From Zingiber officinale (Eukaryota > Streptophyta > Magnoliopsida > Zingiberales > Zingiberaceae), in assembly GCF_018446385.1 (NCBI RefSeq), contig NC_056000.1, forward strand, positions 48,454,722-48,518,721: a DNA stretch of 64,000 bases, given 5' to 3'. Shown one piece after another: positions 3,102-64,000 of the stretch. Both the position numbers and the translations under genes were made by a program. The notes under the pieces are model-generated. The model saw nothing but the letters and a program-made list of their open reading frames with translations, was not told the DNA's origin and searched no databases. Within the stretch, counting starts at the first letter, position 1. Each line of letters starts with the position of its first letter.

Positions 3102-3260
3102 GTTGGAGTGTATACTGAAAGCCTAAGCTTTTGTAAACATTTGTCTTGAATAAAGAATCACATTTGGTCAAATTATCTACATTTGTTTGTAGTTATTCAA
3201 TTAATTTATATTGTAGATAACATAGCTTGTGGTGTCACATGCAGAAGATAATGTTATCAG
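3102..3260 (+). repeat. Outer 3' LTR, first part (interrupted)
   Basis: It begins tgttggagtgtatactg directly after the polypurine tract and matches, in reverse complement, the outer edge of the inner element's LTRs. It is cut at 3260 by the insertion of that inner element and resumes at 12999. The two parts make an LTR of about 2.39 kb that ends ...caaccaaca at 15226. Confidence 0.85.
3256..3260. repeat. Target-site duplication of inner Copia element, left copy (atcag)
   Basis: atcag lies directly left of the inner element and again at 12994-12998 directly right of it. Five bases is the usual duplication length for Copia integrase. Removing the inner element and one copy restores a continuous outer LTR. 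Confidence 0.9.
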
Positions 3261-10440: not shown

Positions 10441-12993
10441 TGTTGGTTGCTACTCGGAAAGCCTAGAGGTTCCACTGTACAAAAATTTTGTACAAAGGTT
10501 TGAACCTTTTCCTAGCTACCATGTGTTCTTTTAAATTAAATTTTGGATCGCCTGCGGAACTTAACACGTTTGATCCAAAACTTAATCTATTTGTTCTTTT
10601 AGGTTTTGACTTGGATCTCCTGCGGAACTTAACACGTTCGACCCAAGTCACCTTAAGTTATTAATTCCATTAAATATTAATTTTCATAATCGGTTCCCAG
10701 TACTGACGTGGCGAGGCACATGGCCTTCTTGGATATGGGAGCAACCACCACCGACTAGACAAAACCTTTTATAGAAAGCTAATATTTAATTTCCTAAAAT
10801 AACTTTAGGTTAACCGAAAAGAACAATCAAATCACAAGGAAAATAAAAACAAAAGAACACTATATTGAAAACAAATTCGAAACTCTAGAATCATATGCCT
10901 CTTGTATTTAGTATTATTTCCAAAAATAACTAGTATAATGCGAAAAGAAAAATTACTAGTTATACCTTTAAGAAAAACCTCTTGATCTTCTACCGTATTC
11001 CTCTTCTAACCTCGGACGTTGTGTGGGCAATGATCTTCCGAGATGAGAACCACCAAGCACCTTCTTCTTCCTTGCAAGTTTCGGCCATCAAAACTTCTTC
11101 TAGGATGAAGAGGTTTGGCCACCACCATCATGCTCCAAGGGATGCTAGAAACAAAGCTTTCTTTCTCTCCTTCTTCTTCTTCTTCTCTAAACTTGATCCG
11201 GCCACCATATGAGTCTCCACAAGAAGGATGAGGTTCGGCCATCAAAGAGAAGAAAGGAGGAGAGGATGGCCGGCCACACCAAGGAAGAAAAAGAGAAAGG
11301 AAAAATAATAGAGTTGTTCTCCATGAAGGTACCTCTACCCTCTCTTTTATAATCCTTGGCCTTGGCAAATAAGGAAATTTAAATAAAAATTTCCTTAATT
11401 CTTTTGCCATTGATAAGGAAAATTTATTTAATTAAAAATATTTTTTTTTCTCATCAACAATGTGGCCGGCCACTTTAAACCAAGCAAAGGAAATTTAATT
11501 CAATCAAGAATTAAAACTTTCCTAATTTGTTTCCGAAAATTTTATAAAAAATTTCTCTAATAATTTTCCCTTCATGATGGTCAATAAAAAGGAAATTTTA
11601 TAAATTAAAATATTTCTTTTAAACATGTGGATAAAAAGAAAGTTATCTTTAAAAATTAAAATCTCTTCCAATCTACAAATAAGGAAAGATATCTAATCTT
11701 TTCTTAATCCTTGTAGAAGCTTTATAAAAGAGATATTTAATTTTTAAACTCTCTTTTAAATCATGAACATGATTAAAAGGAAAGTTTTTACCAAAATTAA
11801 AATCAACCTTTTAATCTACAAATAAGGAAAGAGGTTTAACTCTTCTCTTAATCTTTTGTAGAATCTTATAAAAGGAAAGATTTAAATTTTTAAACTCTCT
11901 TTTAAATCATGTTATCCACATGAGAAAAATTAAAAAAAATAAAATTCCTTTTTATTTTAATAGGGTCGGCCACCTAAGCTTGAGTTCAAGCTAGGGCCGG
12001 CCACATGAATTCACCCATGAACCAAAACATGGCCGGCCCTAGCTTGGTCTCCAAGCTAGCTTGGCCGGCCCCCTATAGGATGGGTAAGAAGGTGGGTATA
12101 GGTGGGTATAGTACTCTATAATTAAGAGGCTACGATAGGGACCGAGAGGAGGAATTGGTTTTGGTCTCCCGATAAAATTAAGCATCCCGTGTTCGCCCCG
12201 AATTTATCAATAATAATTCATTCCACTAGAGAATTATTATTGAACTACACACCAATCCCAAATTACATTTTGGGCTCCTTCTTATTATGAGTGTGTTAGT
12301 CTCCTGTTTTAAGATAACAAATGTCCACTAATTAAGTTTCCGACAACTCACTTAATTAATATCTAGCTCAAGTAGTACCACTCAACTTCATCGTCATGTC
12401 GGACTAAGTCCACCGGGTTTAACATGACAATCCTTTTGAGCTCCTCTTGGGACATTCTCAACCTAGTATCTCTAGGACACAGTTTCCTTCTATAATCAAC
12501 AACACACACTATAAGTGATATCATTTCCCAACTTATCGGGCTTATTGATTCATCGAACTAAATCTCACCCATTGACAAATTAAAGAAATAAATATCAAAT
12601 ATATGTGCTTGTTATTATATTAGGATTACACACACTTCCATAATAACTGAGGTCTTTGTTCCTTTTAGTATAAAAGAAACGACCTCTAATGGTCCTACTC
12701 AATACACTCTAAGTGTACTAGTGTAATTATATAGTTAAGATAAACTAATACCTAATTACACTACGACCTTCAAATGGTTTGTTCCTTTCCATCTTGGTCG
12801 TGAGCTACTGTTTATAATTTATAAGGTACTGATAACATGATCCTCTGTGTGTGACACCACACACCATGTTATCTACAATATAAATTAATTGAACAACTAC
12901 ATTTATCACAAATGTAGACATTTGACCAATGTGATTCTTATTTCTAGATAAATGTTTATACCAAAAGCTAGGCTTTTAGTATATACTCTAACA
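10441..12993 (-). repeat. Inner Copia 5' LTR (right)
   Basis: It runs 2553 bp and pairs with 3261-5852. Most of it differs by scattered substitutions, but a zone of a few hundred bases around 12180-12670 is shorter than in the partner through several small gaps. It lies next to, and in reverse orientation to, the remainder of the outer LTR, forming a very long inverted repeat. Confidence 0.9.
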
Positions 12994-12998
12994 ATCAG
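12994..12998. repeat. Target-site duplication of inner Copia element, right copy (atcag)
   Basis: It matches 3256-3260 exactly and lies directly after ...ctctaaca. Confidence 0.9.
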
Positions 12999-15226
12999 TA
13001 CCTTATAAATTATAAACAGTAGCTCACGACCAAAATGGAAAGGAACAAACCATTAGAAGGTCGTAGTGTAATTAGGTATCAGTTTATCTTAACTATATAA
13101 TTACACTAGTACACTTAGAGTGTATTGAGTAGGACCATTTGAGGTCGTTTCTTTTATACTGACTTTATACAGAAACAAAGACCTCGGTTACTATGGAAGT
13201 GTGTGCTCTTAATCCTGATATAATAACAAGCACATATATTTGATATTTATTTCTTTAATTTATCAATGGGTGAGATTTAGTTCGATGAATCAATAAGCCC
13301 GATAAGTTGGGAAATGGTATTACTTATAGTGTGTGTTGTTGATTATAGAAGGAAACTGTGTCCTAGAGATACTAGGTTGATAATGTCCCCAAGAGGAGCT
13401 CATAAGGATTGTCATGTTAAACCCTGCAGGTGGACTTAGTCCGACATGACGATAAGGTTGAGTGGTACTACTCTTGGACTTAGATATTAATTAAATGAGT
13501 TGTCAGTAACTCACTTAATTAGTGGACATTAAATATCTTAAACACATGGAGACTAACACACTCATAATAAGAAGGAGCCCAAAAATGTAATTTGGGATTG
13601 GTGCGGTAGTTCAATGATAGTTCTCTAGTGGAATGAATTATCATTGATAAAATTAAGTTGTGTGTTCGGGGCGAACACGGGATGCTTAATTTTATCGGGA
13701 GACCAAAACCAATTCCTCCTCTCGGTCCCTATCGTAGCCTCTTAGTTATAGAGTTCTATACCCACCTATACCCACCTTCTATACCCACTCAATAAGGGGT
13801 TGGCCAAGCTAGCTTGGGAACAAGCTAGGGCCGGCCTAGGTGGGCGGCCCTAGCTTGAACCCAAGCTAGTAGGGCCGGCCAAAATAAAATTAAAAAGAAT
13901 TTTTAATTTTAATTTTTATTATGTGGAAGAAATAATTTATTAAAGAGAATTTAAATTAAAATTATCTCTCTTGTAAAATTTACAAAAGATTAAAGAAAGA
14001 GATTTGATCTCTTTCCTTATTTGTAGATTGGTGAGATATTTTACTTTCTCTTTAAAAATTATTCACATATTGTAAAATTAAAATTATGGAAATTTCTTTT
14101 TATTAACCATGTAGAGATTTTTAAAGAAATTTTATTTTTTAAAATTTCCGGAAACAAATTAGGAAGTTTTAATTGTTGATTAAAACTTGTCCAATTTGTT
14201 CTCCAATGATGTGGCCGGCCATGAGATTGTAATTGGGGAAATTTTATTTTATTTTTTCTCAATTAAATCATGACAAGGAAATTGAGGAAATTTTATTGTA
14301 ATTAAATTTCCTAATTTGCCTAGGCCAAGGAATATAAAAGAAGGGGTGAGGGTGGCTTCATGGAACAACCTCTATTGTTTTCTCTCCCTCTTTTCCTTGG
14401 TGTTGTGGCCGGCCATCATCCTCTCCCTCTCTTCCTCTTGTGGTGGCCGAATACTTCATCCCTCTTGGAGTTCTTGTGGTGGCCGGATACTACTTGGAGA
14501 AGAAGAAGAGAAAGCTAGCATCTCTTGGAGCTTGGTTAGTATTTTGGTTTTCTTCTTTGGTGAAGTTCTTCCTTTGTGGCCGAACCTTGCTTGGAGGAGA
14601 AGAAGGTGGTTGGTGGTTTCTCATCTCGGTAGATCGTTGCCCACACAACGTCCGAGGTTAGAAGAGGAATACGATAGAAGATCAAGAGGTTTTTCTACAA
14701 GGTATAACTAGTAATTTTTATTTCCGCATCATACTAGTTATTTATGGAAATAATACCAAATACAAGAGGCTTACGTTCTAGTATTTCGAATATGTTTTTC
14801 GAAGTTGTGTTCTTTTGTTTTTTTTTTCCTTGTGATTTGATTGTTCTTTTTGGTTAACCTAAAGTTATTTTAGGAAATTAAATATTAGCTTTCTATAAAA
14901 GGTTTTGTCTAGTCGGTGGTGGTTGCTCCCATATCCAAGAAGGCCATGTGCCTCGCCACGTCAGTACTGGGAACCAATTATGGAAATTAATATTTAATGG
15001 AATTAATAACTTAAGGTGATTTGGGTCGAACGTGTTAAGTTCCGCAGGAGACCCAAGTCAAAACCTAAAAGAACGAATAGGTTAAGTTTTGGATCAAACG
15101 TGTTAAGTTCCGCAGGCGATCCAAAATTTAATTTAAAAGAACACATGGTAGCTAGGAAAAGGTTCAGACCTTTGTACAAAATTTTTGTACAGTGGAACCT
15201 CTAGGTTTTCCGAGTAGCAACCAACA
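12999..15226 (+). repeat. Outer 3' LTR, second part
   Basis: It continues the LTR started at 3102 (taccttataaattataaac onward) and ends ccgagtagcaaccaaca. It is homologous to the inner LTRs in the opposite orientation, including the ggccggcc-rich zone and the paired gttaagttccgcagg phrases near 15035 and 15105. The five bases after the end (gttac) would be the outer target duplication; its partner is outside the window. Confidence 0.85.
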
Positions 15227-15807
15227 GTTACCCATGTGTGGCCGGCCACATAATGAAAGGAGGTTTCATTTTTTGTGGCAATTGATTAGGTGGTAATTAT
15301 TCCATCTTCTTCCTAGCTTCTTCCTCCTCCTTTGCTGTGGTTGCCGTGAGCTTTCATGGAGGGAGAAGGTGTATGAGTTGTGTTCCAAGAAAAGGGTGAA
15401 GTGAAGGTCAAAAAGGAGGGTACCTAGAGGATTATGTGAGATCCCTTTTTCTTTTCTTTCCTTTCTCCCCTTTTAAATCCTACCCGAGAGCCCTAGAGAG
15501 TGCTAGCACACTTGGGTGCTCTCTTCTCCATCCTTGAGTGTTAGAGAACACCTCTTGTTCGTGTGGATATCACTAGAGAGTTGTCTACGTTGACAACTTT
15601 GAGATCCGGCGTACCGTTGGACGAGCGGGATTTGCAAGGGCACGCTTCGAAGGTAAAATGTTTTTCCTTTGTAGATCTACTGTAGATCATAGTTTAAAAC
15701 TCGTACTCATATTTTCGGAAATTTTTCTTCGCACGGATCCAATGGCTAGGGGTTTCGAGGTTTTCGCGACGCGAAAAAGCGATTTTCGCGGCCCGAAAAA
15801 CCCAACA
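15227..15807 (+). repeat. LTR-like segment of another retroelement
   Basis: Its 3' edge, near 15770-15807, holds gcgacgcgaaaaagcgattt and ends cccaaca. Upstream is a leader-like stretch (gtgtggatatcactagagag) of a type common at plant Copia LTR ends. The left edge is cut by the outer Copia insertion. Neither a partner LTR nor a primer site was found, so this could be internal sequence of the element ending at 18550. Confidence 0.4.
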
Positions 15808-17058: not shown

Positions 17059-17605
17059 AGGTCGGAGAGGGCTCGGTAGCTCGTTCTCTGGACTAGGTCA
17101 GAGAGGGCTCGATAGCTCGTTCTCTGGACCGAACGTGGAAGTCGGAGAGGGCTCGATAGCTCGTTCTCCGGACTAGGTCAGAGAGGGCTCGGTAGCTCGT
17201 TCTCTGGACTGGATGGAGTCGGAGAGGGCTCGGTAGCTCGTTCTCCGGACTAGGTCAGAGAGGGCTCGGTAGCTCGTTCTCTGGACCGGACGAAGTTGGA
17301 GAGGGCTCGGTAGCTCGTTCTCTGGACTAGGTCAGAGAGGGCTCGGTAGCTCGTTCTCTGGACCGGACGTGGAAATCGGAGAGGGCTCGATAGCTCGTTC
17401 TCCGGACTAGGTCAGAGAGGGCTCGGTAGCTCGTTCTCTGGACCGGACGTGGAAGTCGGAGAGGGCTCGGTAGCTCGTTCTCCGGACTAGGTCAGAGAGG
17501 GCTCGGTAGCTCATTCTCTGGACCGGACGTGGAAGTCGGAGAGGGCTCGGTAGCTCGTTCTCCGGACTAGGTCAGAGAGGGCTCGGTAGCTCGTTCTCTA
17601 GATCA
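17059..17605. repeat. 80-bp two-part tandem array (about 7 copies)
   Basis: The unit is two related halves: gtcggagagggctcggtagc plus tcgttctccggactag, then gtcagagagggctcggtagc plus tcgttctctggaccggacgtggaa. Copies start near 17059, 17138, 17218, 17295, 17375, 17455 and 17535. Halves alternate strictly, so the array grew by duplicating the pair. There are no spacers, so it is not a CRISPR. Confidence 0.9.
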
Positions 17606-23025: not shown

Positions 23026-25955
23026 TAGACCTGACCACAGTTCGGAACCGATGGTTCGACGATTCGGAACCGCCGGTTCGATGGTTCGGAACCGCCGATT
23101 CGACGGTTCCAGGCAGATCGACCTTTAACCTTAACCGCCCAAGACGGTTACGGTTCACGGTTCAGAACCACCGGTTCACGGTTCGGTTCACAGTTCGTCA
23201 CGGTTCGTCACGGTTCAAGATTAATATGTTAAAAAAATTAAAAATTAAAAATTAAACATTAAACATTAAACATTAAAAATTAGAAATTAAAATTTATTAA
23301 ACAAAGGGCTTGCACTTATTTAAGTTGCCTACGTATCCCTTTAGGGGAATCAAAGCCCACGTAGTTCTTTTACATTTTTTATCCTTTTACATTTTCATTC
23401 ACTTCCATTTCCTGTTCCTGTCGTATTTGTTCCTTCAGTATCAAAATCTTCAACTTCGTCATCTGAAAGTTGCATTCCTTGGATTCTTTTCTCCGCTCTG
23501 GTCCAATCGTCCAGTAATGCTTGGGCTTCCAAGGAGTCGGGAGACAAAGTTGATCGTCGTTCATCTAATATGTTGCCGCCGGCACTGAACGTTTGCTCCA
23601 CAGCTAAAATTTCTTTTGCGATCACGGAGAAAACGGGAAAGTTTTGAGCCTTCTGTGACCACCACTTTAAGATATCGAAGTTTTCGCTATCTGCTTCATT
23701 AAAATCAAAAGAAGTCGTAAAATAATTCTCAAGTTCCTGTGTGGAACTTGAGGATCCCCGTGGACGTTTTGTCTGTTCTTTTAATAAGAGTTGTGCTTTT
23801 GTAAGTTTTAAATTACTACTAGTAGTTTGTTGAATTTCAGAAATATTAATTTGTGTTCCATATTTTACATAATATTGATTATAAATATCATATAAATAAA
23901 TTCTAACATTATATATAATATTAGCTGGATCAGGGGAAGAAGAATATTTAATTGGAATTAAAGCATCATAATATAAAGTTAACATTTCTTGTAAAACTTC
24001 TAATTTAAATCTAGGATCTAAAGCAAATGCAATTAAATAAATTTCAGGAATTAAATAAAAATATTTTTTCATTTAGTTTTCATAGCTAAGATGCAAGGAG
24101 ATAAAGATTATTAATATGTTCATTTAAAACTAATACTATATTAGAAAAATTTTCTAAAACTAATTGAGCAGTCGGATAATAAACACCGGAAAGTTGTTCG
24201 GTTGCATCATTAAATACTTTTAAAATTTCACAAATACTACTACAAATATTCCATTGTTGTGAAAATAAATATATATTAGTATTAGTGTTTTGTGCAAAAA
24301 ATGAACATAATAATTCTTTATATTGAAATGAATCTTGTAACAATTGGTATGTTGAATTCCAACGTGTTGGTACATCACGTGGAAATTTTTTAGGTCTCAT
24401 TCCATTAATTTTACAAAACCTACCCCATTGTTTCATTATAGATGGATGAGACCATAAATAAGAAATTGCAATTCTAATTGGTTTAATATAACTTTCTAAA
24501 ATTTTTAAACCATCTTGAACACATAAATTTAAAACATGGCATACACAACGAATATGAAAAAATAAACCTCCAATAATAGGTTGACAAACAAATTTTAGAT
24601 CATCTATATAAGCGGTATTAGAACTAGCATTATCTAATGATATTGAAAATATTTTATGAGTTAAACCATATTCTTCTAAAATTAAACATAATAATTGTGC
24701 GATATTATGAGCATTATGTGATTCATCAAAAACTCTATAAGCTAATAATCTTTTTTGGAGGTTCCAAGAGTTATCGATTCAATGGCAAGTCACACTCATA
24801 TACGAATGTGTTTGTCAATGATCACTCTAAATATCGGAACATAAAGAAACTTTATTATCTAATTTACTAAATTCATCAATTAAATTCTTTTTTCCTTGTT
24901 TTACTAATTTTTTAATTGTACGAGTAAGTGTAGTCCTAGGAACACGTTTAGCACATGGATTAAGAGATTCTTTACAAAAATCTTCAAATGTGCATTTAGA
25001 TCCAAAACTAAAAGAAAGATGTTCTACGAAAACAAATTTAGCTAATGATTCTCTTAATTTATTATCCAAATATAAAAATAAACCGGAATCGGTACTACCG
25101 CTAGTTGAAGAAAATCTTGATAATTGTGTTTGAGAACGGTCGAGTTCATATTCCGTCGGGTGCTTCGTTTCTACATGTCGTTTCAACGACCCATAGCCGC
25201 CACCGGTTTGGAATTTGTAGGAAGCATTGCAGTGCTTACATTTTGCACGCATTTCTCCTGACGGAAGAGTGACCTTCTCAAAATGTTTAGTAAAAATAGA
25301 AGACTTTAGAGGAGGAAGTTCCCGAACCTTAGAAGTAATTGCATCGGTACTTCCTTGTATTTCGGGTGTCGGATTCGGAAGATGCTCGATCTCATCATCG
25401 GTAGATTGAATGTTGGGGTCCTCCTCCCGCGGATTCATTATTTGCTTTCCCTTCCGAGCTCGAGATGATGCACCTCCGCGGCCTCCTTCCATTGTAATTG
25501 AAAACGAAAGCGCGTAGAGATTAGAGAATACGAAAATGAGATTAAGAGTAGAGAAGATGTGTGTGAAAAATGATGAAATGAGCTCTCTATTTATAGAGTT
25601 TTGATGGTAACGGACACTAAATCATAACCATTGATCAAAAAACGGTCAAATAACCCTCCCAACGGCTACGAACCGCCGGTTAACTGGCGGTTCCAACGGC
25701 TATGAACCGCCGGTTAACCGGCGGTTCAAGCCGTTTTGAAAAAAAAAAAAAAATTTGCGACTGAACCGCCGGTTCAACCCACTGGTTAACCGCCGGTTCG
25801 CCGGTTTTTACATCTAATGAACTGGAACCGGCCCGGCAACTTGCCGGGCCGGTTCCGGTTCGGCCTGGCGAACCGGGTCAACGGGCAACCGGCCCGTTGA
25901 CCCGGTTACGGGCCCGGGCCGGGTCCGGGCCAGACCCGGCCCGGGGTCGGGTCTA
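23026..25955 (-). mobile_element. hAT DNA transposon with transposase remains
   Basis: The 2930-bp element has terminal inverted repeats TAGACCTGACC (left) and TAGACCCGACC (right, reverse complement), ten of eleven matching, and a perfect 8-bp target duplication. Subterminal zones are packed with short cggttc/gaaccg motifs (about 23045-23220 and 25670-25950), as expected of transposase-binding arrays in hAT elements. The transposase reads on the minus strand and is defective. The right end is extremely GC-rich (about 25840-25950). Confidence 0.93.
23395..25492 (-). pseudogene. hAT transposase, defective
   Basis: The N-terminal piece (25492-24827) has a BED zinc finger (CKHC...HVETKH) about residues 80-112. 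The catalytic RNase H-like core follows, including the SLDNASSN motif (about 24625-24650) and a DVPTRWNSTYQLL motif (24436-24086 piece). The C-terminal dimerisation domain (24072-23395 piece) has the expected WW and PVFSVIAKEILAV patch and an acidic tail. Three conserved tryptophan codons have become stops (24827-24829, 24815-24817, 24779-24781), all G-to-A on the coding strand, and one frameshift lies near 24075-24090. The gene is therefore dead, while its ends look intact, so another hAT could still move it. Confidence 0.9.
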
Positions 25956-34299: not shown

Positions 34300-35265
34300 C
34301 TTTCATTTCACTCTCTCTCCTTGTTATCTATCATCATACTTTCTCTCTCCTCATTCTATCATCATATTTTCTCTCTCAACATATTTTCTCTCTTCTCATT
34401 CTCTACCATTTTCTCTCTGTGTTCTCTCTCATCACACACTCTCTCTCATTATTCTCTCTCTTCATTCTCTCCTCATTTTTTCATCATACTTTCTCTCTCT
34501 TCAATCTCTTACCATACTCTCTCTCCATATTTTATCTAATCTTACTTTCTCTCTCTTCATTCTCTTTTAACACACTCTCTCTCCTCATTCTCTCTCATCA
34601 CACATTCTCTATCATTTTCTCTCTGTGTTCTCTCTCATCACACACACTCTCTCTCATTATTCTCTCTCTTCATTCTCTTATCATTTTTTCATCATAATTT
34701 CTCTCTCATCATATTTTCTCTTTCCTCAACCTCTCTTACCATACTCTATCTCCATATTTTATCTACTCTTAATTTCTCTCTCTTCATTCTCTTTCAAATA
34801 CACTCTCTCTCCTCATTCTCTCTCATCACACATTCTCTACCATTTTCTCTCTGTATTCTCTCTCATCACACACTCTCTCTCTTCATTCTCTCCTCATTTT
34901 TTAATCATACTTCCTCTGTCATCATATTTTCTCTCTCCTCAATCTCTTTTACCATACTCTCTCTTCATATTTTCTCTCATCATACTTTATCTCTCTTCAT
35001 TCTTTTCCATCACACTCTCTCTCCTCATTTTCTCTCATAACACTTTCCCTCTCTTCATTTTTTCCCATCACACTTTCTCTCTCATTCTACTTTCTCTCCT
35101 CAATTTCTCATTTTCTCTCATCAGACTTTCTCTCTCTGAATTTTCTCTCATCATTCTTTCTCTCTCAACACACTTTCTCTCTTATCATACTTTTTCTCTT
35201 CTCAATCTCTCCTATCACGCTCTCTCTCCTCATTTTCTCTCATCACACTTTCTCTCTCATCAAAA
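34300..35265. repeat. Pyrimidine-rich degenerate tandem repeat (CT/CATCA)
   Basis: Almost 1 kb of one strand is built from variants of tctctctcatcatactt with a loose 20-40 bp period. Larger repeated blocks exist, for example the phrase ctctgtgttctctctcatca near 34415 and 34622. It creates long Ser/Leu-rich frames in several phases that are not genes. Confidence 0.9.
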
Positions 35266-50575: not shown

Positions 50576-53500
50576 TTATAATCTTCTCGAGGCAGCATCA
50601 TCGACGTATGCAGTGGCCGCCGCCTCGGTGAGTTGCTTCCCTTCCACGAGACCATTCACCAACGTGTTCATATAGTCTCTAGAAGGCGCAGATGTCGGAA
50701 ACTCACCAGACTTGAAACACTGTATATCTGACGCTGAGCAACTGCATAGAAGAATACAGTGACAAGGTTTTGAAATGGACCTTAAATTATAAGTGCAAGG
50801 AAGAACAGCAAATCATATGGATCATTAACGAGTATCCATTTAGAGCAAATCGACAAAGAAAAGAATAAAAATCTGGACCATAGTTAAGTAACATACGTCA
50901 TTGTTAAGATTGGAACATTATCCTCCTCCCCCAAATAAAGAACAGTGGAGTACCATCCATCCTGCAGTAGCTCCACAATGGTTAGATTCTCTTCCGAAAA
51001 ATAGCATTCACATGACAAGCAACAATTTGAGAAATCTTAGGTGTAGTACCTTAATGGTTTCCAAGCGAGTAGACTTGTTCTTGGCGACATAATTAAGGAT
51101 GTCTACATCCAACAATGGAGATACCATCCTCTGAATTGCTCCATCTTCTTGGTGCAGACTATTCTCTTGAGCCAATACATCATTAAACTGCTCGAGTCTA
51201 TTAGGTAAGAATTGTGGAAAACAAGGAAAATATAAGTGGAATGTTAACAACCAAAATATGCAATTTTAGGACAAGGCAAATGACATACGTTATTCTATAC
51301 ATGCACAGGTGAGCTTTTTCGCTCGTGTCCCTTTCAGGATTAAGAAAAGCAACACCTCCCTTTCCCCATGTACGGGTATAAGATCTTCCAAACAATAATC
51401 TATGAGGCAAAACTTTCCAGATAATGCTTCTTGGTAAACTCTTATCAAGTGATCCACTGCATGGAACAGTCATACCTTGCACCTGCAAGAGTTAAAATGT
51501 TTATGTAGAAGCTCGGTACCCGGCTCAATTTATACATTTGAATATTTCTTTTCTCTAAAAAGAAAAAGAAAACGAGATTCAGCACTAGAGAGCTCGTGTC
51601 ATTAAGGTTCATCAGCAAAACTTACAATTAATTCATTCATACTTTGGATAAAGTTTGATAATATTATTCACGTCTTTTTAGTTTCAATAGTCACATATTT
51701 AAAATATGGTGTATATCTTATAAATTTATACTTTTATATTGTTTATAATATACTCATATTAAGAAAATAATATGTTTCATTTATTAGATTAATGTTTGAA
51801 CGAAAATGTAAATATAATGTTGAGCTCCATAAAAAGCCTATGTTTGACTTAATGACTTAAGCTCAATAACCAATTTTTTTTTTTAATGATCTTATGGGTT
51901 TATGCTTCTTATAAGTTTTTAGACGTTGGTATCAATAGTTTTCAGCAGTAAATCTTAGCACAGTAAATGCCAGCAGTAGCAGGTAAGAACACTGTAATGT
52001 TTATTATTCTTTTTTTTTTATTTTTTTTATTTTTATGTACAAGGTCTAGAGCTTGTTGCTTCCTTACTTCTTTCTAATGTCTTCTAGTGAGCCTCACTTG
52101 TAAAAGATCCACAAGAAGGCTAATGCCGCGGCTATGTAGGAATATGGTTATTTCGTTGCCGTCCTTTCTAAGCTAGCACAAGACTTACTTTAGCCTACTT
52201 ATCTTTTACCGTTACCGTTCTCCACCATGTTATTTGGAAAAGGACTGAAGAAGACCTTAGAAGTAAGTAAGAAAAGAAGCTAATAACTGGTCAAACTCAT
52301 CTTAAGAATTAATACTTGGTAAACTTATGACAAAACTAATGCAGGATAATTTACACATAAATCTTACAGACTGCTTTTAAAAGAAAAGAGAGGTTACTTC
52401 AGAGAGAAGGAAAGTTTTCTTGCATGAGAAGGAAAGCATCTGGAAAAGAGAGGGTTTGCTGGAATGACAGACAGGTGAGGAGATAATGGAGGGCCTTCGT
52501 TTCGGAATGGAAGACAGGTGGCAGAAAAGGAGGTAAAAGAGGACTGGTGGTAGAAAAAAGAAGAGGTCCTGCTTTTAGCTTATATGAATGAAAGGCGGGT
52601 GGCAGATAAGGAGGATAGCTTTAGGATAGGACGTACTATTAGTTGAGTAGAGTTACTATAGAGTGGGTCGAATTTTAGGAGTCGATCATGTTATCTATAT
52701 TATGTTCTCCTATGGAATCCAAAGATGGAGCTTGACGCTTGGGTTGGTGCTCTGTGCCTAGCCAGGGCAGCTAGATGAAAGTGTTGAACTTGCTAGCCGT
52801 TTGTTACTCATTTTTTCTGTCTTCTTTTGATAATGATGAAATAGAGTAGTATGTTGGGTAGTAAAGTTGAACGGAAAGAATCTAGTACCTGTTTCTTTTG
52901 GCTAGTAAATTTTCTCAGTGAAAGATTCTCTTACCAAAAAATAAGTGTCTGGGTCTTTAATTTTGTTCCAGTCCCAGCAAAAGGAGGAGCTTCCCAATCA
53001 AAGTCTGAGTAAGATGGGTAGTCTTCTAGTTATGCTTGGTAACCACCAACCTCATTAACGTCAATTTTGACTAGATGTCGAGTGGGTTCGATTTTGAGTT
53101 TCAGCCATTCAGGTGGAGTACTATCAAATGTGCAGACCATAAATATTTCTTCTTTTAATGCTGTAGAAATAACAGTGCCCAATTTCTTGGGAAAGTCTTT
53201 AACTGAATCGGGATCATGGTCCATAATTTATGCAGAGACCATAGTCTAGTAAAGTAAAAGGAGTAATAATCCGGTCTTTGTAGGCGGTTTTTGTGTAAGT
53301 TTCATAAACCACATTGGCTCTGCGAAAAGAGTAAATAAGTTGGCATTGACAACCATATTTATCAGAGTCAATACAAGGTGGGTCTTTCATTTGGCATTTG
53401 AGTTTGAGACTGAACTATGTGAAGCCCTGAAATTTTTTCACAAAACTCCTCCTGAAGGTATGACAATAGTCTATGAGGCCAAGCCCCAAACTCAAATGCC

Positions 53501-56500
53501 AAAAGAAAGACTCACCTTGTATTGACTTTGACAAATATGACAGTTTTAGGAAGCTCCTCCCTCTTTGCTGATCAACTCAAACATTGGCGTGCCTTTGTCC
53601 AAGGAATACAATAGGGCTGGGACAAAATTTAAGACCCGGATACTTATTTTCTGGTAGGAGAATCTTTCGCCAAGAAAATTTACTAACCAAAGGAAATGGG
53701 TACTAGATTCTTTTCGTTCAATTTTACTACCTAGCATACTACTCTATTTCATCATTATCAAAAATAGACAGAAAGAATGAGTAACAAACGACTAGCAAGT
53801 TCAGCACTTTCATCCAGAGCCTACCAGGCTGCCCTGGCCAGGCACAGAGCACCAACCCAAGTGTCAAGCTCACAAGTCCCATCTTTGGATTCTACAGGAG
53901 AACATAATATAGATAATATGATCAACCCCTAAAATTCGACCCACTCTATAGTAACTCCACTCAACTAATAGTACCTCCTATCCTCAAGCTATCCTCATCT
54001 ACCACCCGTCTTCCATTCCTAAAAGCTAAAAGCAGGACCTCCTCTTTTTCCTGCCACCAGTCCTCCTTTTCTACCACGTCTTCCATTCCGAAACGAAGGC
54101 CCTCCATTATCTCCTCACCTGTCTGCCATTCCAACAGACCCTCTCTTTTCCAGATGCTTTCCTTCTCATGCAAGAAAACTTTCCTTCTCTCTGAAGTACC
54201 CTCTCTTTTCTTTGTCTATAAAAGCCCCTCCTCTTCCACTTCCAAGGACTCGAAGCAATCACTCTCCTCTGCTCAAGTGTTCTCCCAGCAATAGTTCTAT
54301 AAGTTTTTAGTATCTATGTAAGAGCAGTATATTCTATCTGTAAAATTATCTTGTATATTATCTGTTATCTACCACTAGTTCTATGTAAAAGCAATATGTA
54401 AGATTTCTATGTAAATTATCCTGCGCTAGTTCTATCTATATAAGATTACTAATCTGTATACAAGTACGTACTACTTCTTAAGATGAGTCTATCCAGTTAT
54501 TAGCCTCTTTTCTTACTTACCTCTAAGGTCTTCTTTAGTCCTTTTCCAAGTAACATGGTGGTGAGCGGTAAAAGATAAGTAGGCTAAGGTAAGACCTGTG
54601 CTGTGCTGGCTTAGAAAGGATGACAACAAAATAGCCATATTCCTACATAGCTGCGGCATTAGCCTTCTTGTATATCTTTTATAGGTGAGGCTCACTAGAA
54701 GACATTAGAAAGAAGTAAGGAAGCAACAAGCCCTAGACCTAGTATATATATATATATATATATAAAGAGTATAAACATTACCGAGTATAACTGCTATTCT
54801 TACCTCCTGCTGCTGGTATTTACTGTGCTAAGCAGTGTTCGAAATTGCGCCCTAGGCGGCCGCCTAGGCGTTGTGCGGCAGGTTGCCGCGCCGGAAACCA
54901 GCGAGGCGGAAGCCTTAGGCGGCTGGGCCGCCTAGGCGATCCTCGGCGGGCTTCGACGAGCTTCGGCGGGCCTAGCTTTTTAAGGCATGTTAAACCGGTA
55001 TTTTAGGTATTTGCTAGGCGTTCGTTTGTTTCATCGCCCCGACTCTTCGTCTTCCCTGATCGCGTTGCTTCCGATAAGTTTTTTTTCCTGTTCATTTATG
55101 TTTTTTTGTTTCTCAAATCTTCGTCGCGGCAACACCGGACGCATCGTAGGTGTCAGACACTGCCTGAAGCGTCGCCGGACGCGCCGTACGCGTCCGGCGA
55201 AGTCCGGCGTTGCTTCGAGCAACGCTGGTAGAGTCGCGATGCTTCTGACTGTGCCAAAAGCTTTCCGCGCGACGCTACCGGCGCCGCTGGAAGTAACGCC
55301 GGACGCATCGGACTCGTCCGGCGAAGCTTCCGGCAGCACCGGAGCCCTCCCACGAGCTGTCGGTGGCAGCCAATGGCGTTCGCGTCGTCGCGCGAGTCGC
55401 GACAGAGACGGCGTTTTTAGCATTTTTCTTTTTTCTTTTTTAATTTTTTTTTAGATTTAATAAATTAAAACAATTCCTAACTCCTAACGGGGATAATTTT
55501 AATAATAGGGTTGAGTTCATAAAGCCTAATAAAATTAAGATCCCAATTAAATATATTTAAAATTTATCTTTTTTATAATAAATATTATTAATTTATATAA
55601 AATAAATTTAAATATATAAAATTCTAATAACCATTATTAATTTATATAATCATATTTAAATATATAAATAATATATTTAATTTTTTAAATAAATAATATT
55701 AAATATTAATTTATATATTAACAGATTTAAAAAATTATAATAAATATTATCATTTATCAGATTTAAAAATATAAAAATATTTAAAATTAAAAAACATATA
55801 ATACATATTAATAAATTAATAAATCATATTTAATTATTTATAAATTATAAATTTTATAAAATATTATAAATTTATATTAATCGAATTTATACATATTAAA
55901 ATTATATTAAAATTTTAAAAAATTTAATAAGTATTATTAATTTATCTAAATCATATTTATAAATTTTATATATTATAAATGTATATTAATCGGATTTATA
56001 AATATTAATTATTAAAATTATATTAAAATTTTAAAAATTCTAATAAATATTATTAATTTATATAAATCAGTTTTAAAAATACGAAAATTAAATTAAAATT
56101 TTAAAAATTCTAATAAATATTATTAATTTATATATAAGTATATAACAGATTTAATAATATAAAAAATATATTTAAAATTAAATTTATTTAAACAAATATC
56201 TAATAAATTTTATTAATTAGATTAAGATATATAAAAAAATATTCACTTGTTAATGACTTAATGTTATATTCCATATTTTCATTATTTTGTATTGTATATT
56301 TGTATGGTATAATTAAATTTTATTATCATATTATGTCTTGTTATATATAATTTTTTTTCCTTCAGATTATCTGTTATCAATGACAAGCAATCCATCTTCG
56401 ACAGCATCTGTCACTCAACCCGAATCCGGAATTTTTAGAAGAAAGTCAAATGATATCGAATGGGAGTTTGGGATATTGATTGATCCTAAGAACCTCGACA

Positions 56501-59500
56501 AAATTAAATGTAAGTTATGTGGAAAAGCAATGTCAGGAGGAGTGTATAGGATAAAGGAGCACATTGGAAATATACCTGAAAATGTATCTGGTTGTCGAAA
56601 AGCATCTCAAGAAGACAAAAATAAGTACAAACAGGCTATTTTAGAAGGGAGGAACAGAAAGAAGAACAAAATAATGAAAGAACAAAGTTATAGAGCAGAG
56701 GTGGCTATTTCCCTAGATGAAGAAGAAGGTCTTGAAATTGAAGGTATGGATGGAGTTAAAAACCTCTTCCACTTGGCCCCATGGATAGATATGCATCGAC
56801 AATTGCTCCAGAAAATGCAGGCTCCAGTGGAAGTAAAGTGCTTCGCCAAAAAAATATAAATGAGGCTCTTTTCAAAGAGAGAACTCAACAAGTTCAACAA
56901 TATGTTGGGAGATGAGTTTATAAACATGGAATCTCATTCAATGTTGTTGATAATGATAGCTTCAAGCAACTAATGGAGGCAGTGGGTCAATTTAGACCAG
57001 GATTCAAGCCTCCAACTCAATATCAACTTAGGGAGCCACTATTGAAAGCCGAAGTTGAAAAAACAAAACAATTGCTGAAGAAACATGAAGAAGAATGGGC
57101 AAAGAATGGATGCTCGATCATGACAGATGCATGGAGTGATAGAAAAAGAAGAAGAATCTTAAATTTGTGTATTAATTGCAAGGAGGGTACTACATTTTTA
57201 GAGTCTAAGGAGTCTTCAGAGGAGGCGCATACAGCTAAACTTATTTTTGAGTATGTTGACAAGTGTGTTGAACAAGTAGGAGCTCAGAATATTGTTCAGA
57301 TTGTTACAGGCAATGCCACCAACAATATGGCTGCAGCTAAATTGATGAGAGAAAAACGACCCGGGATCTTTTAGAGTTCATGTGCAACTCACACTATTAA
57401 TCTCATGCTTGAAAGTATTGACAAACTTTCACGATATAAAAAGGTGATTGAGCAATCCAAGGCTTTTACCATTTTCATCTATGCTCACCATAAAACTTTA
57501 TCATTGATAAGAAGTTTCACGAAGAAGAGAGACATAGTCCGACCAAGAGTTACCAGGTTTGCATCAAATTTCCTCACATTGCAAAGTTTGATTAAAAAAA
57601 AAAGCTAGTTTAAGGGTCATGTTTACAAGTGATATGTGGGAGAAATGTAAATGGTCAAAAACAAACAAAGGAAAATTGGCTTACTCTACAGTGATGAGCA
57701 TGAGTTTTTGGAATGGTGTGACACTTTGTTTGAAAATATTTGCTCCTTTGGTAAGAGTTCTTCGATTGGTATATGGAGATAGAAAGTCATCGATGGGGTT
57801 TCTATATGGGGAGCTTCATCAAGCTAAAGATCAAAATAACAGCCAGTCAGAATGTATCAACACCTATCATAGTCATTATTGAGTCAAAAATGAAGGATAG
57901 ACTTGATACATCATTGCATACCACTGCATTTTTGTTGAATCCTTATTTTTACTACAAAGATAGTTCTATTGCTCTTTATGAGGAGGTCGCGATGGGGATT
58001 TTTGAATGCATGGAAACTTTGCATGCCAATGAGTTAGATCTACAAGATACAATTATTAACAAGGAATTTCCAAAATATAGAAATAAGACTGGGTTATTTG
58101 GAAAAACATTGGCAGCAAAAGCATGTGAAAAAAATGATGATACATTTGATCCATGTGCATGGTGGAGTACATACAGTGCTCACACACCTAACTTGCTAAG
58201 GGTGACATTGAGGATACTTTCATTAACTACAAGTACATCTGGGTGTGAAAGAAATTGGAGTACATTTGAAGGAGTAAGTTTTAAACTTTCAGTCTACTCT
58301 TTAATTAAATTAGTTATAATTTTTAACGTCTATACTCTATATTCAGGTACTAACTATAGTATTTACTTTCTCTGTTTTTTTTTAGATTCACACAAAGAAA
58401 AGAAATAGGTTGAATGCCAACAGGTTGAACAATCTAGTATTTGTCCAATTTAATGCTAGATTGTTGAACAAACAAAAAAGAGAAAAAGAAAGAAATGTTG
58501 ATGTCCTTCTTGCAAAAGATGCTTCAAATGCACAAGGTTGGATTATGGATGGTGGGGAAGATGATGAAGTTGAACTAGGTTCCGGGCTCACTTGGCAAAT
58601 GGTTGATGAAGCAAGTGGAGCGGATGAAAATCTACAACCCCGAAGAAGCTCTAGAGTGAGAGAACTTCATGAAGATGATTTTGAATCCGAAGAAGAAGAT
58701 GAGGATCACAATAATGATATTGAGTTTGTGTCCGATGAAGAACAAGTTATTGAAAATTATGGAGAAGAAGAAGCAGAATAAATATGAGTCTATGAGATAT
58801 TATTAGTTGTATAATTTTGAACTCATTTTGTTAAGAGATGATTTATGTTATTTAACAATTATATTTTGTTTAGTGGTTACTAGTTCACAATGCATTGTAA
58901 TCTTGAATTGAATTATTGCTACTATTTTCCAATGTTCTACTGTTTACTAAATGATTATGATAACTTACTGCATGTTTTATTGTTTAACTGTTTCTTTTAC
59001 TCATATTTACTGAGCCTAGTATATTTCCTTTGCACAAAACTATTAGTTTTCTTTTATAGTTTTTCATTTTTTGGTATTGGAAAGTATGTATTTATTTCAG
59101 CATACATAGTTAGATCTTCATTGCTATGAAATTGTTTAAAACAACATTTAGATTTGCATATAACATTGTCCACAGTCCACGTGAAACAAGGGATACCGAG
59201 GAATCCGCCTAGCGGCGCCTAGTCCCCGCCTAGGCGGCCTAGGCGCTAGGCGCTGGTCTGCGCTCAACTAGCGCCTAGCGAATTTTAGAACCTTGGTGCT
59301 AAGATTTACTACTGAGTACTATTGATATCAACGTCCAAAAACTTCTAAGAAGCATAAACCCATAAGATCATAAAAAAAAATGGTATATATATATATATAT
59401 CCCATGTCATTTTTCCATTGATCTTTACTCTCAGCTTGCATGAATTAAAATAAACAATATGAAGGATTAACATATGCTGGCTTACACCGCATGAGATTTG

Positions 59501-62500
59501 AAAGATTGTGCATGCATGTCTTTTCTAATTGCTAGAGACATAATTGATGTTTAAAATAGAATATTACACAGGGGGCTCAGCAAAAACTCAAACTTTCCTG
59601 GTGACTTCAATTTGTACACTAAGTGAAGAGGAATTTAGAAATAATATTGATGTGTCATAGCCTACAACTAGAAGATTCTTCAACTCTGTCAAATAACTGT
59701 TTCACTTATCTAACTATAGAAACTATCGGTCATCTTTACACACATGTCCACATCGCCAACAAGTGATGCACACTAGTTTGCAGCAGTCAGTTTTTCTTAC
59801 ATAACTAGCATTTTCCCACCCAATCTCTCTTTCTCCCAGAGAAGAAATGTCATCAGCTACATGATCCATGATGTATATTAGGGCTGTTTATTTGGAAGGA
59901 TAATAGGTAGGGCAAAGTGAAAGCAACACAAAATATACATGAGTGATTTATCATTCATGAAACATGAATTCCATGATCCTTTCTTTATCCCTCTCCTTTC
60001 CTTCCTATCTTTCCACCGAAGAAAACCTAGCCTAAGGGACTACATAGAAATGTGGGATTGTAGCAGATAATAGCTATCACGTATGTGACAACTTAACTTT
60101 AGTGATTAGCTTTCTTCTTCTTTTGTAGGTAGACGGAAAGAAAGGGGGAAATGACTGATCCAAATGAAGTGAACTGCAAAGAAAGAGGAGTGAAGAGAAT
60201 AATAGGGAAGAAAGTAGGAGTAAAAATGGAGTGAGGAGAGAGGGAAAGAAAGGGATTCATAGAATAATGAATATTCATCAAAGTATAAACGCATTACAGT
60301 GCACATGAAACCTCGCATAAGAGAACTAAAAAACTGCCCACCAAACTATCTGCTAAATCCACTGAACAAGGATGTTATCTTCTTAGACCAATTATTGGGA
60401 GTGAAATTTGTACACTAAAGCATCCAAATGGTGAAGGAACCAAGAGAAAAGGCTTCAGACCTACATTGGAAGTGTAAATAGGCAGACCATACTACATATT
60501 GATCAGACAGCAAAGTGGATTTACTAAAAGAAGTATGGTATCAATTTGCAGGTAAAAAGATGCACCCACTTTCTACTTGAGTCAATTGAGAAGAATGCAA
60601 AAAGTTAACTTTCTATACAATATAAGGTAAAGCATAATTGTGAAAACATAAAATAGAAATGCCTTCTTAACAGCTCAGAAAATAAACAGAGAAGTCCCAT
60701 ATCTAGAATACCAGTAATTATTTGCTGTGCAAAAATTTACAGATACCTTTCCACCTTCTATGTAGCACAAGAACCTTGGCTTCCACATATTTGACCCATA
60801 GCTTGCATACCAAACTTCAATTTTTGACAATGAAGATCTCCATGTGAAGCTACTAGCAATAATATCGCTTGGTATCAGTGTTTGTGGATCATGACATGAT
60901 TCGCATTGAGATGAGTGTCCCTCTATTTGAAGTTTACTTGAAGCATTTATCCCATCGCAATCTTCATCTAGATCCAGTTTTGAAAGTGGTAGAATCAGAT
61001 CTTCAGCAAATTTTCCATCCTCCACATTCTCTGCAGTGTTGATGCCCTTATCCATCTCCACCTCAGATTCAGAACTAGAGTAGGTTACCTGAAATTTATA
61101 TTCAGATCCTTTTATGGCTAAAAACTGATAGATAAATGAGAAGCAACACGAGTTGTGCAGGATACTAAACATGCACAATTTGTGTTGCATTCAAAGAAGA
61201 AGAGCAAGTGTGGCGAAGTATCACAGATGTCAGACAGGTAAGGTGTGGTTGAGATTGAACTACACAAAATGATAACCAAAACCTCTTAACTTGATTATGA
61301 ACCACGGCTCATGAAGATGATCATATCACAGTTATGAGAATCCTCCACAATGGAGATCCTATTCAAACGAAGGGCTCCAAGCAAATCTCACATGAGAGGT
61401 GTGTAGTGAAGCACGAGCAAGGAGTTGGCTTTTATAGAAGAGAATCATCTTTTAATTTGAATGTAGAATAAGAACAAGCTACACAACAACCAGACTAATT
61501 CCATATTATTACTACTTTTTTGTAATGTGTCGTTTTAGTTATGTATCTGGTTATTGAGTATGAAGTTGTTCGTTTATGTACTACTAATATAGTATATATG
61601 TAGCATTCATAAGAGAGCAAGAAAATCATGAGACAACAAAAAATATACCATGATTTATAGGTATTAGCTCCCTCAAACAAATTCATCTCCTTTCTCCTCT
61701 CTCCCCATGTTAGTTCCCAACATATATGACCACTAAATCAAAATTCACAACACATGAAAAAAAAAAAAATCAATCAATCAAAACATGGTATTCAATCAAC
61801 TCATGTTGATGCTAGATACAACAACCTACCTAATGTGGTAGTGACAACAGGAGGAAGGAGAATCAAAACATGGTATTCAAGCAATTGAGATTTTAGAACT
61901 TATTATTTAATGAAAGGAATATAGTCCCATGTTCAAGAGAGTAGAACACTTTAATGCGTTTTAAAGCTCAAAGAGACTCCCACCTTACAATCTGTCTTTT
62001 GATAAAGCGCTAAACAGCAAGAATGTGCCTGACTTCCAAACCAAGTAAGAACTTGATGGACCCACAACCAAGTCAAAAATGCGCACAATATATGGCGCCA
62101 CCCTGTGGAAATGAAACGAGCTTTCAACTCTCCCCAAGGGTTGAACTTTGTCTCACCTTTATAATGAGTGGGGAACTTCAATTCCCACTAAGGTTCTAAG
62201 AGATACCTACCTATTGAGCTTATTTGAGACTGGGTAAAACTATCTCGCTCCAAAACAACAAGACCTTGTCAAGCCAGGAGTCATGGTCAATCTGCATAAA
62301 ATAACCTCAGCAATGTGCATTTGGACATCACATCTAGAATTTCATGCTGATAATGAGTGGGGAACTTCGATGCCCACTAAGGTACTTCAATGCCCACAAA
62401 GGCACTTCGATGCCCACAAAGACTCAAAGGGATTACTACCTACCGAGATGCTCATTTGAGATTGGGCTAGATTGTCTCACTTCAAAGCTGATTAAACGTC

Positions 62501-64000
62501 AATAAGACAGAAGCTATGGCTGTAAATAAATAGAACGTTCATAAACAAGCTTGGTGTTCGACTGGGTAAGAGTTTGTTTACGTTCGTTCAATATACACAA
62601 GATGTATTAAATGAACAAGCTTGAAACGACTCATTTAACTAAATGAATAAGCTTGAACATATATATGTTCAGCTCGTTAATATTAGTGAAAATGTTCGTG
62701 AACAACGTTTGTGAGCAACGTTCGTGAGCAATATTCGTCAATAAAACTCTCATCAACTTGCTAAAATAAATAAACTTTCAAAATGAACCAACAAATTTGT
62801 ATTATCAAGTACAATAACTAATCAAACAAGCTTAAAATGTAAAAATTTCAAACAATCAAACAAGTTTGAGTTAAGAGCTCGATAACATCTAAACGAACCA
62901 AGCCCAAGCCAAGCTCGAACCAAGCTCAAGCTCATAAAAAAGAAACTAAACCAAGCTTGAACAATTATTTTAATGGCTTGGTACATTTTAGGCTCGGCTT
63001 GGCTCGGTTTGGCTCGGCTATCTTATCAAACAAGCTTGAACAGCACAAAGCTTGGCTCGGCTTGTTTATAGACCTACTAGAAGCCTTGGTCAATGTGCAT
63101 AAAATATCCTACATTTGAGATTGAGCTAGTATTGTGCAGATATCACATCTAGAAAATATATGGCAAAGCATTAGTTTCCTTTAGCTCTTAAACCAGGATA
63201 TTTAAGCAAACTCTCTCTCAACTATCAAGTAATATAGGAATATAGTCCAATCCTGGTTCAGCAACCTCAGATAAATGCCTGGAAAATAAATTAACCAAAA
63301 AAGTGGGGAGTAATTTCTTTGATTTGAGTTGCACAGGTTTCAAAGATTTATAGGAAGTACATATTATATGTTGTATGCAAAACAAAAATGCAATTTAAAG
63401 ATACACTACTCACCTCAGGTGGGCGAGGTCTTCCACGGCTAGCTAGTAAGCTCTGAGGTAGCTTGATATTAAGAGCAGGCCAATATCCTTTTAGTTCATG
63501 TCGAACCTGAAGAAACCATCATGAACAGAAAAAATTGCCACAAGTGGAAATAGCCATCATGAGATGAAAATGGATGACAAATGTATTACCGCTTTTAGGA
63601 TATCCCATGTAGATTCAAAAGCAGGACTGCGTGAAGATCCAACAACTTCTTCATGCAACAGTATTTTTGCACAACTCAGAACAGAGTTAGCTATAGAATT
63701 GAGATTATATCCACCTTCCAGGGCCATTACTATCTTTCCTTGGGCAAATGGCATCAACTTTAACAGAAGACAAGCAATTACACAAAATTGTAAGTCTAAG
63801 CGTCAGAAAAATCTGTGTTCAAAGAAAAGGTTGAAGCAATTTGGATAAATATGAATTACTAAGTTTGACAGTACAATTTCTAATAATCAGGTTGGGCAAA
63901 CAAATCAGTGGTTTGGAGATTGTTTACCTTTTCTAATAGAAGTGAATAACCATAAGGTGTAACACAACAACCACCAAGAGGGTCATCAATGGCTGTTCAA
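50576..64000 (-). CDS. HDA5: Class II histone deacetylase, HDA5 type, 3' part (8 exons in window)
   Basis: Exons on the minus strand: 63992-63928, 63757-63590, 63506-63414, 61088-60747, 51482-51289, 51197-51050, 50961-50897, 50741-50576 (stop TAA), all in phase with GT-AG introns. The first visible exons are the end of an HDAC catalytic domain (DPLGGC, VTPYGYS, then KIVMALEGGYNLNSIANS). A Ser/Asp/Glu-rich linker follows, and then a region resembling gamma-glutamylcyclotransferases: YASYGSNMWKPR, HRLLFGRSYTRTWGKGGVAF, CMYRITLEQFNDV. HDA5 of Arabidopsis has the same HDAC-plus-tail design, which supports one gene rather than two. It deacetylates histones and other proteins; the tail's activity is unknown. 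The 5' half is outside the window. One intron is 9264 bp and full of transposons. Confidence 0.9.
51870..53010. repeat. Left arm of a large inverted repeat
   Basis: About 1.14 kb. Its reverse complement recurs at 53545-54832 and 59296-59381. The outer edge holds atgatcttatgggtttatgc. Relative to the right arm it lacks about 200 bp near 52370-52385. Arms differ by an estimated 10% by eye. Confidence 0.85.
53011..53544. other. Loop of the large inverted repeat, with its own palindrome
   Basis: Between the arms. About 53345-53535 is itself an inverted repeat centred near 53440: acaaggtgggtctttcattt (53376 on) returns as aaagaaagactcaccttgt (53503 on). A 64-residue frame on the minus strand (53030-53224) and a 61-residue frame on the plus strand (53340-53525) match no family I know. 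Confidence 0.7.
54825..54832. repeat. 8-bp target-site duplication, left (gtgctaag)
   Basis: Identical to 59296-59303. The uninterrupted sequence survives in the left arm near 51952-51962 (reverse complement), confirming the insertion. Confidence 0.95.
54833..59295 (+). mobile_element. hAT DNA transposon (4463 bp) nested in the inverted repeat
   Basis: Ends CAGTGTTCGAAATTGCG (left) and CAAGGTTCTAAAATTCG (right, reverse complement), with a perfect 8-bp target duplication. Subterminal gcctaggcg motifs cluster at both ends (54860-54960 and 59205-59280). A GC-rich, CpG-rich block lies at 55030-55420 and a very AT-rich block at 55440-56330, then a defective transposase gene. It lies antisense to the HDA5-type gene. 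Confidence 0.94.
56380..58781 (+). pseudogene. hAT transposase with BED finger and DUF659-like core, defective
   Basis: ATG 56380 follows a likely intron acceptor at 56364. The BED-type finger (CKLCGKAMSGGVYRIKEHI) lies within the first 70 residues. The core (56973-57374) has KPPTQYQLREPLL and CSIMTDAWSDRKRR, but the usual TDNA motif reads TGNATNN (glycine codon at 57309-57311), losing a conserved acidic residue. The dimerisation domain (about 58140-58275) shows FDPCAWWS and SGCERNWSTFEG, then an intron and a final exon from about 58386 (IHTKKRNRL...) with an acidic tail. At least two in-frame stops (near 56913 and 57372) and about three frameshifts make it inactive. Confidence 0.9.
59296..59303. 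repeat. 8-bp target-site duplication, right (gtgctaag)
   Basis: Identical to 54825-54832; the inverted-repeat arm resumes here. Confidence 0.95.
59382..60746. other. Intron flank right of the inverted repeat
   Basis: It begins with a short (ta)n run (59384-59400), then ordinary AT-rich intron sequence. Nothing recognised. Confidence 0.5.
62352..62425. repeat. 19-20 bp minisatellite (3 copies)
   Basis: Three copies of (g)acttc(g/a)atgcccacaaag in a row. The first duplication unit has only one copy, so this grew after the duplication. Confidence 0.85.
62515..63076. mobile_element. Short non-autonomous hAT-type element (562 bp)
   Basis: Ends TATGGCTGTAAATAAA (left) and TAGGTCTATAAACAAG (right, reverse complement). 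Flanking octamers acagaagc and ctagaagc match at six of eight positions, consistent with an aged 8-bp target duplication. Subterminal zones are rich in caagct/ggctcgg motifs, very common in plant hAT miniature elements. No coding capacity. Confidence 0.7.

Follow-up and report, generated by a model that had tools for sequence, protein, structure and literature searches.

A 9264-nt intron holding an inverted repeat and a nested hAT transposon in a predicted class II histone deacetylase gene of Zingiber officinale

The deacetylase gene and its intron

We analyzed a stretch of 64,000 nucleotides from Zingiber officinale (NCBI RefSeq assembly GCF_018446385.1, contig NC_056000.1, positions 48,454,722 to 48,518,721 of the forward strand), referred to as the window, that contains part of a histone deacetylase gene with a long, transposon-filled intron. 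Positions are counted from the first nucleotide of the window. The gene lies on the minus strand, and its eight exons in the window form a single reading frame of 412 codons that ends with a stop at 50576. Exon ends are AG/GT throughout, and the last exon ends in its own stop codon. The end of the catalytic domain is encoded by exons at 63928–63992, beyond which the gene runs past the window edge, and at 63590–63757; the exon at 63414–63506 links the catalytic and tail domains. The fourth exon (60747–61088) encodes a linker and the start of a tail domain whose predicted fold resembles gamma-glutamyl cyclotransferase (GGCT), and the fifth (51289–51482) carries that domain onward. Two further tail-domain exons follow at 51050–51197 and 50897–50961, and the last coding exon is at 50576–50741. 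The fourth and fifth exons were placed by frame and by alignment with bacterial proteins, the others by frame and AG/GT ends.

The joined product, including the exon at 63928–63992, matched the end of the Hist_deacetyl domain of Pfam (PF00850) with E = 1.2e-06 and a bit score of 28.5, where the cut-off is 27.9. The best solved-structure matches of the joined fragment were HDAC6 chains, and the deacetylase is therefore assigned to class II (HDAC6-like). It is a putative member of an HDA5/HDA18-like subgroup. Between the fourth and fifth exons lies a phase-0 GT-AG intron of 9264 nt (51483–60746, minus strand), the fourth of the coding region when counted from its 3′ end, with the donor GT starting at 60746 and the acceptor AG ending at 51483. 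An earlier reading of the letters of the window, referred to here as the original prediction, had proposed a histone deacetylase gene with a frame-keeping intron at 51483–60746. The domain match, the HDAC6 chains and the intact frame bear out the gene, and the coordinates proved exact.

In the spliced frame the junction reads ...CYIEGGK/VQGMTVPC.... A first search of bacterial proteins, with the plant tail as query, gave 44 stretches that fit a pattern, none of which was confirmed. A second search, which used a consensus sequence, gave 144 confirmed actinomycete relatives, and the best 80 were kept and used for the junction alignments. All 80 proteins align continuously across the site where the two exons meet, and about 8 columns to each side of it are free of gaps. 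The identity of the plant tail to these proteins is 27.3–41.4%, with E values of 3e-28 to 2e-14 in a search of these few sequences. When matched separately, the part from the fourth exon and the part from the fifth to eighth exons each find 78 of the 80 relatives; the two parts are exactly adjacent in 57 of these 78 and off by 1 or 2 residues in the other 21. None of 20 shuffled tails matched at E ≤ 1e-3. Because the bacterial proteins span the junction without a gap, the exons on both sides of the intron encode one domain. At the level of sequence the flanking exons clearly belong together, while splicing in the plant is itself predicted. The same alignments support the earlier proposal that the intron splits the tail domain.

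If the exons belonged to different genes, or if their join were an assembly error, the large distance between them and the intervening repeats would be accounted for, and nothing else speaks for such an arrangement. Against it, each bacterial relative is a single gene that covers both sides, frame and phase fit, and the hAT transposon inside the intron (described below) retains intact ends that are flanked by a perfect duplication. We regard this explanation as extremely unlikely.

Two observations on the tail stand beside these results. The C-terminal domain of the plant class II deacetylase (60747–61088 and 50576–51482) is related to the actinomycete proteins L001–L080, and the QE within plant LAQEN aligns with a QE that is invariant among 44 bacterial proteins. 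A sequence search of the PDB with the plant tail returned three weak matches to ribosomal proteins, the best with E = 0.28, which we dismissed as chance. For a comparison of folds, the structure of one bacterial relative (L071) was modeled from 44 aligned bacterial proteins, with a mean predicted local distance difference test (pLDDT) score of 93.1. Using this model, Foldseek gave six matches at E ≤ 0.001, all of them human GGCT chains (2i5t, 2rbh and 3cry), with E values of 2.9e-05 to 6.1e-05 and template modeling (TM) scores of 0.45–0.63; the best was 2i5t (E = 2.9e-05), and ChaC2 came next. By the fold modeled for this bacterial relative, the tail domain is GGCT-like. The intron breaks the tail query after residue 38, a site that in the model is just behind the first strand and the first helix. 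In the top-ranked literature on histone deacetylase, gamma-glutamylcyclotransferase and HDA5 together, the GGCT term was absent.

If the intron were retained, translation would run 23 residues past EGGK to a stop, and the resulting deacetylase would lack most of the tail domain. This property is also what one would cite if the insertions had broken the gene, so that transcripts stop in the intron, only a tail-poor deacetylase is made and the downstream exons are relics. An early end of the transcript would add the same residues, and the sense strand of the intron carries 10 AATAAA hexamers. However, this number is within chance, since 200 order-1 simulations gave a mean of 11.7 and 143 of them reached 10, and the four downstream exons retain frame, splice sites and similarity to the bacterial relatives right through to where the tail ends. 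A broken gene is thus quite improbable in our judgment.

The inverted repeat and the nested hAT transposon

The intron contains an inverted-repeat element with outer ends at 51877 and 59380 and a length of 3033 bp when the hAT transposon and one 8-bp duplicate are subtracted. Comparison of the arms with each other showed 89.2% identity over 1070 aligned positions around a centre of 639 nt (52975–53613), and the inverted repeat named in the original prediction is thus real. The arm alignment has 246 gap columns, most of them in one stretch found in the right arm only. The arm pairs split by the hAT transposon (51877–51961 with 59296–59380, and 51954–52379 with 54386–54832) otherwise continue each other. 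Together the repeat and the hAT transposon occupy 7504 of the 9264 nt (81.0%), in agreement with the predicted four fifths. Without both insertions the intron would be 1760 nt, a size comparable to that of the preceding neighbour intron (2.3 kb).

The nested hAT transposon (54833–59295, plus strand, 4463 bp) sits in the right arm of the inverted repeat, near its outer end. It is flanked by a perfect 8-bp target duplication, GTGCTAAG, at 54825–54832 and 59296–59303. Among 300 random pairs of places, an exact 8-mer pair was found in 4 when 31 × 31 offsets were allowed, whereas the GTGCTAAG pair lies exactly at the hAT ends. Compared by eye as candidate terminal inverted repeats, these ends, CAGTGTTCGAAATTGCGC and CAAGGTTCTAAAATTCGC, are alike yet imperfect. 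A transposase in several open reading frame pieces lies at 56317–58408 on the plus strand, antisense to the host gene, and matches DUF659 (7.6e-43) and Dimer_Tnp_hAT (2.4e-09) in Pfam, with zf-BED under the cut-off. Two adjoining DUF659 pieces in the same frame are parted by a stop, and the transposase frame is thus broken. The duplication and the domains, which uphold the predicted nested hAT, are those of hAT superfamily DNA transposons; this copy differs in its broken transposase and in its composition. A 930-bp segment inside it (55431–56360) has 8.8% G+C and contains irregular AT repeats, and an adjoining segment of 598 bp has 59.5% G+C and a CpG observed/expected ratio of 1.51. Since the hAT transposon interrupts a repeat arm, the inverted repeat is the older of the two.

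In order to place the inverted repeat in a family, coding capacity and target duplication were considered. A Pfam scan of 10 of 18 open reading frames (at least 50 amino acids and wholly inside the repeat) gave none over the curated cut-off; the weak matches below it were Zn_clus (0.016), DUF7054 (0.099) and Doppel (0.0072). Non-autonomous elements lack a transposase anyway. A Mutator-like element was considered, but in place of the target duplication of about 9 bp expected for it, no pair of 8- to 11-mers with at most one mismatch was found when the ends were varied by 15 bases, and the longest symmetric pair at the repeat ends is 3 bp. With none of the 10 scanned open reading frames passing Pfam and a target duplication of at most 3 bp, we give the repeat no family name. 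A viral_contigs scan with one 65-amino acid piece of the repeat centre confirmed no relative. By eye only, the outer ends (51877–51961 and 59296–59380) hold a TGGTATCA/TGATATCA stretch reminiscent of a tRNA-Met primer site. Tracts of (TA)n, also seen by eye, lie beside the inverted repeat, including just beyond its right end. A pararetrovirus or a long terminal repeat element was therefore considered as a tentative candidate for the repeat. In the whole window, Rfam gave no matches at the gathering threshold and ARAGORN gave no tRNAs.

Predicted hairpin folding and possible traces of silencing

We folded the minus strand of 51954–54832 (2879 nt), which is the sense of the gene transcript, and compared it with five dinucleotide shuffles. 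The RNA of the inner repeat folds at −1713.2 kcal/mol, versus −724.2 to −755.6 kcal/mol for the shuffles. The two arms are joined by 912 of the 1173 pairs. Uninterrupted helices of at least 21 bp number 13, the longest of them measuring 61 bp, with G-U pairs counted. The potential of the unspliced RNA to form a very long hairpin is the most notable feature of the locus. Dicer-like proteins of plants typically process long RNA hairpins, which makes it plausible that the repeat gives rise to small RNAs and is methylated.

The original prediction had further noted that introns of this type often carry heavy silencing marks, and we looked at two footprints of cytosine methylation. In the repeat, the CpG observed/expected ratio is 0.33–0.45. 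Of the remaining intron, the unique sequence on the donor side has a ratio of 0.19 and the 394 nt on the acceptor side have one of 0.91. The neighbouring 2.3-kb intron and the exons both stand at 0.46. Transitions from arm to arm were counted at CHG and CHH cytosines (H being A, C or T) and at CG. They are more frequent at CHG (0.313) than at CHH cytosines (0.153; p = 0.002), and the excess at CG (0.25) is not significant (p = 0.20). The test covered six repeat pairs, namely the intron arms and five comparison pairs, of which the pairs at 3–15 kb overlap. At CHG, one comparison pair resembling long terminal repeats (LTRs) had an excess (p = 0.03), three had p = 1.0 and one had a reversed tendency (p = 0.09). 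At CG, the LTR-like pair had an excess (p = 0.008), the 3261/13932 pair had a deficit (p = 0.04) and the other four of the six pairs had p > 0.19. The excess of CHG over CHH transitions weakly hints at silencing of the intron. The suggestion of silencing is thereby weakly supported; CG transitions and CpG depletion, which is not specific to the repeat, do not add to it.

Several other features were seen elsewhere in the window. A second hAT remnant lies at 23395–25621 on the minus strand (Dimer_Tnp_hAT 7.8e-13, zf-BED 4.3e-05). Two copies about 97% identical, at 3252–5855 and 10431–12996, lie within 3252–15229, and a partial, inverted third copy at 12994–15229 forms a 2.2-kb palindrome (11813–14029). 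A GC-rich tandem array at 17061–17599 has 6.8 copies of an 80-bp unit with 94% matches and is part of a stretch of about 50% G+C at 16–22 kb. A pyrimidine-rich TCTCTC/ATCA minisatellite at 34355–35262 is probably the cause of a GC skew of −0.455 at 34–36 kb.

Origin of the intron and comparison with known systems

We consider it highly probable that this is an ordinary spliceosomal intron of a class II deacetylase gene, enlarged by two successive insertions. The 3.03-kb inverted-repeat element was inserted first, and the hAT transposon later, near the outer end of one arm, duplicating 8 bp. The gene would be transcribed through both insertions, and splicing would remove the intron and bring both portions of the C-terminal GGCT-like domain together. 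Unspliced RNA may fold into a hairpin in which the arms pair with each other over roughly 0.9 kb, and this hairpin would be expected to give rise to small RNAs and to DNA methylation of the element. A failure of splicing or an early end of transcription would keep the catalytic domain and lose most of the tail domain. Several points weigh against this account. Pfam and NCBIfam scans put no name on the tail domain. The use of donor and acceptor is a prediction from genomic sequence, and the intron position and the insertions were examined in this window only. As a methylation mark, CpG depletion is uninformative, a CHG excess at p < 0.05 is present in just two of the six repeat pairs, and the divergence of the arms may predate the entry of the element into this intron.

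The intron might also act as a chromatin sensor of the IBM1 type: how much product is full-length and how much is tail-less would depend on methylation of the intron, which the deacetylase itself might alter. Class II deacetylases are not known to act on such introns, and we count this against a sensor. In its favour are a chromatin-modifier gene, a long repeat-filled intron, an RNA that forms a hairpin and the excess of CHG transitions. Introns of this kind were reported in 27 of 65 IBM1 orthologue genes (34 species), whereas most Arabidopsis genes with CHG-methylated introns keep their full-length transcripts when the methylation is lost (PMC11265718). On balance, a sensor seems very unlikely. 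A self-contained loop, in which small RNAs from the hairpin methylate the intron and methylation selects between the full-length deacetylase and one lacking the GGCT-like tail, is likewise very doubtful. The idea that the gene acts back on its own intron, offered as speculation in the original prediction, found no support, and its prior is lowered by these Arabidopsis findings on CHG loss (PMC11265718).

In rice, >10% of genes have intronic heterochromatin, mostly associated with transposable elements (TEs); OsIBM2 acts on genes of this kind, and the mean intron is 446.9 bp (PMC7145194). For Arabidopsis, one study gave a count of 206 intronic TEs, with about 17% of intragenic TEs being at least 1 kb (PMC4417168). 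Methylated introns of IBM1 orthologues reach 27.2 kb, and reduced CHG methylation of introns leaves most Arabidopsis full-length transcripts unchanged, IBM1 and PPD7 being notable exceptions (PMC11265718). Given these precedents, long TE introns in chromatin-modifier genes are of a known kind (PMC7145194, PMC11265718). Like the rice genes, the present gene seems intact apart from its long intron filled with TEs. It differs in that the intron is about 20 times longer than the rice mean and is fourth from the coding 3′ end, whereas heterochromatic introns of rice are biased toward the promoter (PMC7145194). As with the 7th intron of IBM1 in Arabidopsis and its orthologues, a large intron lies in a chromatin-modifier gene, and truncated and full-length products are conceivable here too (PMC11265718). 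However, methylation and isoforms have been measured for IBM1, whereas our locus is known as sequence only, and the Arabidopsis IBM1 intron is inside the catalytic JmjC domain whereas this one splits a tail domain. In the suppression of intronic T-DNA by IBM2/EDM2, repeats likewise lie in an atypically long intron that is transcribed through, although that is a transgene system in Arabidopsis without a link to this locus (PMC5364540). The parallel to IBM2/EDM2 drawn in the original prediction is sound as general background (PMC5364540, PMC7145194). Among the papers listed on HDA5/HDA18 concerning intron structure, transposons, inverted repeats, heterochromatin and IBM2, we found no report of this intron.

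The deacetylase appears to be a further example of a plant gene that withstands heavy transposon insertion in one of its introns. It may also serve as a convenient test locus, where a very long hairpin RNA would be made inside a chromatin-modifier gene and where full-length and tail-less products would be easy to tell apart, since the intron splits a domain. If the isoform ratio were sensitive to methylation, the gene would be an addition to a short list on which IBM1 and PPD7 are named (PMC11265718).

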